From positions 1 through 64,000 of the forward strand of contig JAFGRD010000116.1 of assembly GCA_016935315.1 (NCBI GenBank): 64,000 bases of DNA, in the 5' to 3' direction. Source of the stretch: Pirellulales bacterium (GTDB lineage Bacteria > Planctomycetota > Planctomycetia > Pirellulales > Thermoguttaceae). Below are positions 33,634 through 36,298 of the stretch, in pieces. Positions within the stretch are counted from its first letter, which is position 1. Every line of letters begins with the position of its first letter. The translations under genes were made by a program, and so were the position numbers. The notes beneath the pieces were generated by a model. It searched no databases and was not told the origin of the DNA. It was given only the letters and a program-made list of their open reading frames with translations.

Positions 33634-34122
33634 TTACTGGCTCGTGCGAACCGTATCCGGGGGCGGGCCCACGCATCGACCGGGCGGGGGACAATTCAGA
33701 TCCAGCCAATAGGTGACGATGCGTCGCATGACCTCGACCAGCTCGGCAAATTCCATCGGCTTCTGGATGAAGCTGTGGGCACCCAGGCGGTAGGCATCCG
33801 CCACCTCCGGTTGCTCGGCGGACGATGTCAGGATGACCACCGGCGGCAGACTGGGAGGCTCGCCGCTGCGGACGCGCCGCAAAACTTGCAGCAGTTGCAG
33901 CCCGTCCATGGCCGGCATCTTCAGGTCCAGCAGGATCAAGTGCGGCGCATCGGCCGGATCGCGCCCGGCGTGGGACCCCGTGGCAAACAAGTAGTCGATC
34001 ACCCCCCTGCCGTCGCGGACCACCTCGAGGTGGCACTTTGACGGGACCTGTTCCAGCGCGCGGCGGATCAGCACGGCGTGCGCGGGATCGTCTTCAGCCA
34101 GCAGAACCGTTTTTTGCCCCAT
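33634..34122 (-). CDS. Single-domain response regulator (Rcp1-like)
   Basis: 162 residues, starting behind AAGGAGGAG. A stand-alone receiver: acidic pair in LLAEDDPAHAVLIRRAL, phosphoacceptor in ILLDLKMPAMDG, hydroxyl residue in VILTSSAE, lysine in SFIQKPMEF. The extended beta3 loop and ending (VMRRIVTYWLDLN) are typical of the Rcp1 subfamily that partners phytochrome-like kinases. No output domain, so it acts by docking or as a phosphate sink. It is the last of three leftward signalling genes. The short leader contains several GGA triplets, including the Shine-Dalgarno. Confidence 0.93.
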   Translation of the reverse strand: MGQKTVLLAEDDPAHAVLIRRALEQVPSKCHLEVVRDGRGVIDYLFATGSHAGRDPADAPHLILLDLKMPAMDGLQLLQVLRRVRSGEPPSLPPVVILTSSAEQPEVADAYRLGAHSFIQKPMEFAELVEVMRRIVTYWLDLNCPPPGRCVGPPPDTVRTSQ

Positions 34123-34225: not shown

Positions 34226-34861
34226 TCAGACCGTCGGTTCCACGATCGACGCGGGCACGCGGCAGTCGCTGCTCCAGAAAGTGGCAATCCGCGAAACCGA
34301 ATCGCGAAACTCCTGGAAGTGCGGCGATTTGCGCACAAATGCGTTGGCCCCCGCCCGCAGACAATCGGCCACCAGCGCCTCGTGTTTCACGCCGCTGAGG
34401 ACCACCACGGGCAGCATTCGCAGCCTGTAGCTGGCGCGAACGCGTCGCAGCACCTCCAAGCCTGGCATGTCCGGAAGATTCAAGTCCAGCAGAATCAGGC
34501 GAGGGGGTACCGAGGCGCGCCGATGCGAACCGTTGACCCCGAGCACGTCAATGGCCGCCGTACCTGTCGGGGCGATGGTCACCTCGGGCAACCGGCAATC
34601 CGACAGGATTCGGTGAATCAGATCGGCGTGGTCCGGGTCGTCTTCCACGACGAGGACCGGAAAGGCCCCGGCAGCCGGCGGAGAGTTGCCGAGCGAGGTC
34701 AGGTCCGTTTCCTCGCGCAAAACCTCCTCCCGCCAAACACGGATCTCCTTCGGGGCGTCGATACCAAGCTTCACCCGCTGCCTGCGAATGGAGAGGACCT
34801 TGACACGGATGTCCGGACCGATCCGGACGACCGTATCGCAGTCGCGCGATAGAACCAACAT
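34226..34861 (-). CDS. CsrA-receiver fusion: mRNA-binding regulator joined to a response-regulator receiver
   Basis: 211 residues from ATG 34861, behind AAGGAGG seven bases upstream. Residues 1-50 are a complete CsrA domain: MLVLSRDCDTVVRIGPDI, VKLGIDAPKEI and WREEV, with the RNA-contact residues L4, R6 and R44 present (position 43, usually H, is W). A 16-residue linker leads to a full receiver (about 67-185) with acidic pair D74/D75, phosphoacceptor D126, S156 and K178. CsrA proteins are usually 55-75 residues and act as dimers binding GGA hairpins to block translation; here dimerisation or RNA binding could be phosphorylation-dependent. It lies between a histidine kinase gene (upstream) and a lone receiver gene (downstream). 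I know of no characterised protein with this architecture, but could not search. Confidence 0.9.
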   Translation of the reverse strand: MLVLSRDCDTVVRIGPDIRVKVLSIRRQRVKLGIDAPKEIRVWREEVLREETDLTSLGNSPPAAGAFPVLVVEDDPDHADLIHRILSDCRLPEVTIAPTGTAAIDVLGVNGSHRRASVPPRLILLDLNLPDMPGLEVLRRVRASYRLRMLPVVVLSGVKHEALVADCLRAGANAFVRKSPHFQEFRDSVSRIATFWSSDCRVPASIVEPTV

Positions 34862-35170
34862 GCCTGCCCTCCTTGGTTCTAGGATCCCAGCCGCTCCGTT
34901 GGGCGTCCGGCTTAAGCAGACCACAGTCGGACCAACCGGGACGTGCGTCAGTCGATTTTCGGGAACATCCGGCGAGACCGTAGTTGCCGCAAGAAAGCCG
35001 GGATTACCACGGTTTACAGCCCCCGCCAATCGTAGTTGTAGCAAACGGGGCCCCGCAACTCAAGGGGAGACGGCATAAAGTGCTGCGTTTTTTGGACGCG
35101 ACGAATGCACCAATAGGGGGGCCACCGGCGTATGAGACCGTTGCCTGTCCGAGAATCGCCCGACAACGGG
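34862..35170 (-). promoter_or_regulatory. 309-base leader between kinase and CsrA-receiver genes
   Basis: No gene seen. Read toward the CsrA-receiver start it contains several GGA triplets (CCGGATG, CCGGACG, AACGGAG, GGGATCC and the Shine-Dalgarno AAGGAGG), the core of CsrA-binding sites, so autoregulation is possible. In G+C-rich DNA such triplets are frequent, so this is suggestive only. A run GCGTTTTTTGG sits at about 35085. Confidence 0.3.
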
Positions 35171-36298
35171 TCACGCGATTGGCGGATCGGCGAGCGGATC
35201 GGCGAGCGTGAAGAAAAATGTTGTGCCGCAGTCCGGTTTCGATTCCACCCAGATCGCCCCCCCGTGCCGCTCGACGATTTTCTTGCACACCGCCAGCCCG
35301 ATCCCGCTGCCCGGATACGCCTTGCCGTGCAGCCGTTCGAAGACCTTGAAGACCCGCTCGAAGTCCCCCGGATCGATGCCGATCCCGTTGTCCTGCAAGG
35401 CGAACTGCCAGCGGTCGTCCACTCGGGTGGCGGAAAGACGAAGCAGCGGCTCCGACGGGCCACGGAATTTGATCGCGTTGCCGATCAGATTCTGAAACAA
35501 CTGGACCAGCAGGGCATGGTTTCCGGCCACTTCGGGCAGGGACCCCACCTCGAATTGCGCCCGACTCTCCTGGATGGCCACTTCCAGGTTGGCCTTTGCC
35601 TGGACCAGGACCGATTCAAGGTCGACCGGCCGAAACGGCTCTTCGGACCGCCCGGCGCGGGCATAGTCCAGCAACCCCTCGATCAGGCCGTTGATCCGTT
35701 CCACACCGCCGACGATATGGTCGAGATACTCGCTCGACTCGCCAGGCAACTGCCCCGCGCACGCCTCCTGAAGAAGCTGGCAGTAGCCCGAAATGGTCAG
35801 CAACGGCGAACGCATATCGTGGGCGACGACCGACGCGAAATCATCGAGTTCCCGGTTGGATCGGGCCAAATCCTGCGCGCGTCGGGCCACGGCGTCTTCC
35901 ACGTCGTCGGCGTACAGATCGACGCGCTGCTGGTATGCCCGGTTGACGTGCTTTAGCAGCTCGCTTCGATCGCCCAGCCTCTCGATGCAGGCAAACGCGC
36001 CGAGACTGGTCGCCTCGTTCCGCGAGTCGTGGGAAGGGTCGCTGGTGTAGATGACCATGCGGAGATCGGCATCGAGGCTGCGCATCTTCTGCAGAAGCTG
36101 GTTTCCACGGGCGTTGGGCAGCCGCGAACCGACCACGGCGACCGAGAAGGTGCTCTGCCGCACCAGCCCGAGCGCCTCGCTCGCCGTGCCGCAGCCGGTC
36201 GCCTCGAACCCCTCCTCGTGGAGCCAGCCACAGACTAACTGCCGTTGCGCGTCATCGCCTTCGACGACCAACACTCGCGAGAACTGCTCGGCGACCAT
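35171..36298 (-). CDS. Soluble histidine kinase with degenerate N-terminal receiver
   Basis: 375 residues from ATG 36298, with AAGGGCAGGGG upstream. Residues 1-120 have the receiver fold (RVLVVEGDDAQRQLVCGWL) but the phosphoacceptor aspartate is replaced (VAVVGSRLP, where LLDLRLP is usual) and the late lysine is arginine (CIERLG), making a pseudo-receiver. A short coil leads to HisKA with the histidine in VVAHDMRSPL, then HATPase with NLIGNAIKF, DNGIGIDP and GSGIGLAV, all intact. No membrane segment. It heads the kinase / CsrA-receiver / receiver cluster and is the natural phosphodonor for both. The end of the gene contains a duplicated 12-mer giving LADPLADPP. Confidence 0.92.
   Translation of the reverse strand: MVAEQFSRVLVVEGDDAQRQLVCGWLHEEGFEATGCGTASEALGLVRQSTFSVAVVGSRLPNARGNQLLQKMRSLDADLRMVIYTSDPSHDSRNEATSLGAFACIERLGDRSELLKHVNRAYQQRVDLYADDVEDAVARRAQDLARSNRELDDFASVVAHDMRSPLLTISGYCQLLQEACAGQLPGESSEYLDHIVGGVERINGLIEGLLDYARAGRSEEPFRPVDLESVLVQAKANLEVAIQESRAQFEVGSLPEVAGNHALLVQLFQNLIGNAIKFRGPSEPLLRLSATRVDDRWQFALQDNGIGIDPGDFERVFKVFERLHGKAYPGSGIGLAVCKKIVERHGGAIWVESKPDCGTTFFFTLADPLADPPIA

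Follow-up and report, generated by a model that had tools for sequence, protein, structure and literature searches.

One gene of the window, i.e., the whole stretch of 64,000 nt analysed from a Pirellulales bacterium, joins an N-terminal CsrA domain to a response regulator receiver in a single reading frame. Judging from sequence comparison, the product is probably a response regulator with a CsrA-type RNA-binding output, which would be phosphorylated by a histidine kinase and would switch its binding to mRNA leaders. The probability of this reading was put at roughly 60%. At least 14 full-length fusion genes were identified in at least 13 genomes, i.e., the gene of the window and 13 further genes in 12 other genomes, one of which (G014) carries two.

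CsrA is a major bacterial translation regulator, and its known controls are either sequestration, exerted by sRNAs, or the action of FliW, which is a separate protein. A CsrA switched by phosphorylation, if true, would make a very short path from sensor kinase to translation.

Domains and conserved residues of the fusion

The fusion gene and its parts were assigned as follows.

34226 to 34861, minus strand: CsrA-receiver fusion gene, 211 aa (single frame, Pfam domains, full-length relatives)
34712 to 34861, minus strand: CsrA domain, residues 1-50, R6 and R44 kept (PF02599, 63.8 bits against a curated cut-off of 27, E 1.4e-17; 14-gene column table)
34658 to 34711, minus strand: variable linker, residues 51-68 (alignment; pLDDT below 50 at residues 46-59)
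34298 to 34657, minus strand: Rcp1-type receiver domain, residues 69-188 (PF00072 Response_reg, 64.7 bits against a curated cut-off of 30.2, E 1e-17; best structural match 1i3c Rcp1)
34484 to 34486, minus strand: codon of D126 of the fusion receiver

The frame runs from ATG to stop without an internal stop, and the plus strand across 34226-34861 holds an unrelated frame, stop included. A sequence-only reading of this DNA had claimed a complete CsrA domain with L4, R6, and R44, followed by a receiver in one frame of 211 residues. Both parts of the claim were borne out by the Pfam scores above the curated cut-offs and by the presence of the three residues. The receiver residues D126, S156, and K178 were also present as named, but the acidic pair had been given as D74/D75. 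By the canonical receiver motif the pair is taken here to be E73/D74, and position 75 is variable among the 14 fusions. No ANTAR domain was matched by Pfam in the window protein. The AlphaFold single-chain model was confident for the receiver and the core strands of CsrA, and its confidence was low for residues 1-6 and 46-59 of CsrA. Therefore, the model is silent on the packing between receiver and CsrA.

The receiver is of the Rcp1 type by sequence and fold. The best structural match was 1i3c Rcp1 (E 2.7e-12, TMt 0.91), and bacteriophytochrome regulators and Rcp1 ranked near the top by sequence. Over both comparisons, the closest proteins were phytochrome response regulators (AtBRR, RtBRR, Rcp1, and RcpA). 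Rcp1 and RcpA share the receiver fold and the sequence type with the fusion (1i3c, 1k68), whereas their solved chains are receivers alone, of 140-149 residues, and the receiver of the fusion is joined to CsrA.

Across the 14 fusions, R6 and G33 were kept in all, R44 in 13, and L at position 4 in nine, the others having I or V. In the receiver, D74, an E or D at position 73, an S or T at position 156, and K178 were found in 14/14. D126 was found in 13/14, with Glu in G713, and the phosphorylation residue set was complete in 13/14. Both halves are under purifying selection, as observed in one close pair of genes, G737 and G768. In this pair, dN and dS were 0 and 0.24 for the CsrA half, 0.045 and 0.38 for the receiver, and 0.31 and 0.37 for the linker of 14 codons. 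Thus, both domains are constrained, and the linker is without sign of constraint.

The CsrA half might be a mere dimerisation or docking module with little RNA binding, which pairs receivers or free CsrA, the latter as a phospho-controlled partner or decoy. Position 43 is in its favour, being W, S, or F in 14/14 fusions, whereas 33 of 46 free CsrA copies (near-duplicates among them) have H there and one has W. Position 7, which is R in E. coli CsrA, is variable in the fusions, and the window protein missed the NCBIfam CsrA equivalog cut-offs (60 of 73 bits and 58.8 of 70.1 bits). The window genome has six CsrA copies above cut-off, the fusion included, which would supply partners for such a module. 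In G869, moreover, the RNA-binding strand beta5 was lost together with R44, and CsrA scored 17.2 bits against the Pfam cut-off of 27, yet the receiver and the kinase neighbour were retained; the CsrA half can therefore decay. However, R6 and R44 are fixed in 14/14 and 13/14 fusions while positions 5, 7-10, and 38 drift, and both arginines would be dispensable in a pure dimer module. The module is accordingly held to be unlikely.

Neighbouring genes and proposed control

The following genes adjoin the fusion in the window, and an ETR1_N domain (ethylene-receptor-like) was located at three other loci.

35171 to 36298, minus strand: histidine kinase, with an N-terminal receiver followed by HisKA and HATPase_c (Pfam)
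33634 to 34122, minus strand: lone receiver of 162 aa, downstream of the fusion (PF00072, 70.6 bits; counterpart in G022)
L054, 5077-7881; L160, 3487-5562; L161, 7423-9333: ETR1_N in, or directly before, the kinase upstream of the fusion

The position of the gene between a kinase and a lone receiver, as read earlier from the sequence, was confirmed. Both neighbours lie on the strand of the fusion, 309 nt (kinase) and 103 nt (lone receiver) away. The N-terminal receiver of the kinase has lost its Asp (VVGSRLP, compared with the canonical motif). In G022, a lone receiver also adjoins the fusion and is 54% identical to that of the window.

The nearest well-supported upstream gene on the same strand was a histidine kinase in 5/14 loci, i.e., in the window, G712, G737, G768, and G869, with gaps of 116-897 nt, or in 4/13 with G737 and G768 taken once. 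ETR1_N was associated with the upstream kinase in three of these five. In G712, one strand carries an ETR1_N protein, a MASE3-PAS-HisKA-HATPase kinase, the fusion after 116 nt, and a REC-LuxR gene. In G737 and G768, an ETR1_N-PAS-HisKA-HATPase kinase lies upstream on the same strand, 897 nt away in G737 and 810 nt in G768. The interval holds ORF calls that are short and weak, and the downstream receiver gene is on the opposite strand. The order in G869 is a small kinase, 430 nt, the fusion, and a REC-LuxR gene. HisKA matches numbered 48, 14, 27, and 18 per genome (E up to 0.01; genomes of 4.7-7.1 Mb). Assuming that 1-2% of genes are kinases, the chance of at least 4/13 kinase neighbours is about 7e-6 to 1e-4. 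Because of the gap of 309 nt in the window and of 897 and 810 nt with weak ORFs in G737 and G768, adjacency is stated here and no operon is claimed.

By Pfam search on the nearest longer gene, no upstream histidine kinase was found in the other nine loci, three of which are on contigs shorter than 11 kb. The seven other fusion genes of the window's family were without a kinase found next door, several of them on short contigs. At two loci, small membrane-type proteins of similar look adjoin the fusion in convergent orientation, i.e., a protein of 292 aa in G037 (L043, 7339-8214) and one of 300 aa in G014 (L044, 9348-10247). They matched no Pfam family over cut-off.

The nine loci without a kinase found next door would also suit a receiver that serves localisation or acts as a phosphate sink, with a CsrA activity that is constitutive and not phospho-switched. 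The linker points the same way, because it varies in length and sequence and has pLDDT below 50, so that tight coupling of CsrA and receiver is not evident. Such a role is nevertheless quite improbable given the phosphorylation residue set, complete in 13/14, and the recurrence of kinase neighbours in distant lineages.

In the preferred reading, that of a response regulator with a CsrA-type output, two fusion chains would form a strand-swapped CsrA dimer. The dimer would have two RNA-binding pockets, composed of beta1 of one chain and beta5 of the other, and would bear two Rcp1-type receivers attached directly after beta5. The histidine kinase would phosphorylate D126 and thereby alter how the receivers pack, be it with one another or onto the pocket that surrounds R44. 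Binding to target mRNA leaders would then be raised or lowered, whichever the direction of the switch. By such phospho-control of RNA binding, a sensor kinase could control translation via the fusion.

The FliW site of CsrA bears on where the receiver might act. In known CsrA, the RNA-binding regions are residues 2-7 and 40-47, R44 being the crucial position, and the FliW site in C. jejuni comprises V51 and N55, directly after beta5 and beside R44 (PMC7829508). Residues 51 and 55 of the window fusion are E and T, within the linker. Among free CsrA copies, an I51...N55-like stretch follows the domain in 14/46, by a pattern devised here. The linker and receiver of the fusion stand where free CsrA has its C-terminal part, which holds the FliW site; this suggests that the receiver is possibly a built-in antagonist gated by phosphorylation. 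Such a covalent 'built-in FliW', i.e., a receiver moved on or off the RNA pocket by phosphorylation so that the kinase controls translation in one step, is offered as a tentative idea with less than even odds. If true, control would need neither transcription nor sRNA nor a separate antagonist, and it would have an ethylene-receptor-like input in some lineages. The net charge was positive for the CsrA part in 14/14, and neutral or acidic for the receivers in 14/14 and for the linkers in 13/14. By analogy, these opposite charges might loosely fit the electrostatic masking that has been proposed for the action of FliW (PMC7829508).

FliW was found in 6/6 fusion genomes outside the window's family; therefore, the receiver does not simply substitute for FliW. 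Within the family, it was not found in 6/7 fusion genomes, G021 being the exception, which counts in favour of the preferred reading, although in genomes that are 79-99% complete, where stated, absence is not proof. CsrA was present in 101/101 genomes of the family, with 1 to 18 matches per genome. The other five CsrA copies of the window genome have just 14-34 residues after the domain and are therefore free-standing. Free CsrA copies may pair with the fusion and thereby also come under control of the kinase.

Distribution and descent

In the survey of the window's family, 7/61 genomes (own included) had a full-length fusion, i.e., G000, G006, G014 (two copies), G021, G022, G026, and G037, with eight genes in total. 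The scan of a collection of 84,980 species gave at least 80 loci and at least eight full-length fusions, three of which came from additional genomes (L052, L054, and L055). Searches around the additional genomes added G737 and G768 (matches in 4/150 genomes, and the same four in another search), and a further search added G869 (matches in 2/151 genomes). All scanned relatives except G869 passed the Pfam CsrA cut-off. The sequence-only reading had proposed looking for co-occurrence of the two Pfam domains across planctomycetes. The two domains co-occur in the 14 genes of 13 genomes, and the taxonomy of 7/13 fusion genomes was in all cases Planctomycetota (Pirellulales, Planctomycetaceae, Phycisphaerae, or phylum level). 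The fusion is rare in the order (6/296 genomes at E up to 1e-36) and rare phylum-wide (full-length matches in 2/392 genomes drawn across the phylum, with the first model). In the plasmid search, 467 records matched; the best 5 of 467 matched the receiver part only, and in one of the 467 records a single location spanned at least 80% of the query.

An artefact would be a frameshift or a misassembly, which the earlier reading had named as what would refute it, or two genes merged via an internal start. On its side is a TTG in the window gene (codon 48) that follows a GAGGAGG stretch, though at a spacing too short for a normal start. It is dismissed as having a negligible chance, because the same join recurs in 13 further full-length genes of 12 other genomes and the linkers have in common no start codon that is preceded by a ribosome site at a suitable distance.

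In a careful tree of 68 rows, the 14 fused receivers formed one clade against 54 others, with support of 100/99. For this tree, 11 outlying rows were dropped, a length filter was applied, and the remaining rows were thinned. A quick 89-row tree that kept such outlying rows needed two changes for the fusions and placed G737 and G768 beside three long-branched receivers. The tree of the CsrA halves (50 columns) grouped 11/14 fusions in a clade (99/93), and one group of all 14 CsrA halves was not rejected (p-AU 0.236). The trees are read as a probable single ancient fusion with later patchy loss or transfer.

A partial relative of the fused receiver was found in G015 (G015:C1051; L046, 5431-5760), matching residues 119-204 only. 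The CsrA profile found nothing on the 6.5-kb contig that carries it. It is perhaps a decayed fusion copy.

Known systems, leader, and other CsrA extensions

The composition of CsrA and receiver is not new and, as far as its listing goes, has been catalogued before. CsrA was listed among the outputs of response regulators in a paper of 2007 (PMC2222644), which refers to Galperin 2006, J Bacteriol 188:4169. The response regulators with CsrA output in the 2006 classification have both domains in one chain, as in the fusion, a likeness drawn by class name. In the accessible part of the open-access literature, no functional study of a CsrA-receiver protein was found. The additions here are the order with an N-terminal CsrA, the Rcp1-type receiver, the support for a single origin of the fused receivers, the selection on both halves, and the kinase neighbours in distant lineages.

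Free CsrA or RsmA, controlled by sRNAs or FliW, has the CsrA domain with R6 and R44 in common with the fusion. In contrast to it, the fusion has a linker and a receiver where the C-terminal, FliW-binding part would be, and it falls below the NCBI equivalog cut-off. E. coli CsrA is a protein of 61 residues without a receiver. The label 'orphan RR', under which it is tabulated in a 2025 review (PMC12471899), therefore misfits it. Signal-controlled RNA binding is described for the ANTAR response regulators, e.g., AmiR, EutV, and PdtaR (PMC12471899, PMC7602753). The fusion would act alike, whereas it is without an ANTAR domain and its RNA-binding domain is N-terminal and of the CsrA type. The fusion family consists of small proteins of about 200 residues, suited to direct tests, and if the switch works, it could be taken over as it is into synthetic circuits that control translation.

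Two features were assigned in the leader of the window gene.

34867 to 34874, minus strand: Shine-Dalgarno AAGGAGGG, 6-13 nt before the ATG (read from sequence)
34850 to 34881, minus strand: perfect stem of 9 bp enclosing the Shine-Dalgarno (GGA in the loop) and the ATG (6/500 shuffles as good)

The Shine-Dalgarno agrees with the strong ribosome-binding site claimed earlier. The stem is possibly a putative autoregulatory site, and the evidence for it is weak. In the same test, the start-codon stem was borderline in G026 (25/500 shuffles) and G014b (21/500) and not striking in the other 10 of 13 leaders tested; the stem of the window itself was not seen in relatives. Autoregulation via a GGA hairpin loop was tested for in the leaders and rejected, since 4/14 had a match where 3.2 were expected (the one leader that contains N was left out of the control). 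The folding of the whole window leader was not unusual (z -1.0). No promoter-like site was found in the promoter scan, and the terminator scan gave a single terminator-like site, located on the plus strand, where 2.5 were expected.

Other extensions of CsrA were also observed. L208 (G006:C306:4887-5042) is a second CsrA-receiver frame, of 209 aa, with 50.7 bits for CsrA and 34.9 bits for Response_reg (cut-off 30.2). In BLASTP against the window protein, in substance just the CsrA part aligned, and a separate start via Met-Met in the linker is possible. In three genomes of one genus, the CsrA frame continues for 194-198 residues beyond the domain and includes a conserved block (L164, L166, and L167 of G047, G505, and G509), which is another kind of CsrA extension. 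No further Pfam match was found in the one of the three that was scanned. In L198 (G713:C10), a single frame holds both CsrA and a sugar kinase of the PfkB type (86 bits), and this frame is possibly two genes, given that the kinase part has its own preceding Met.
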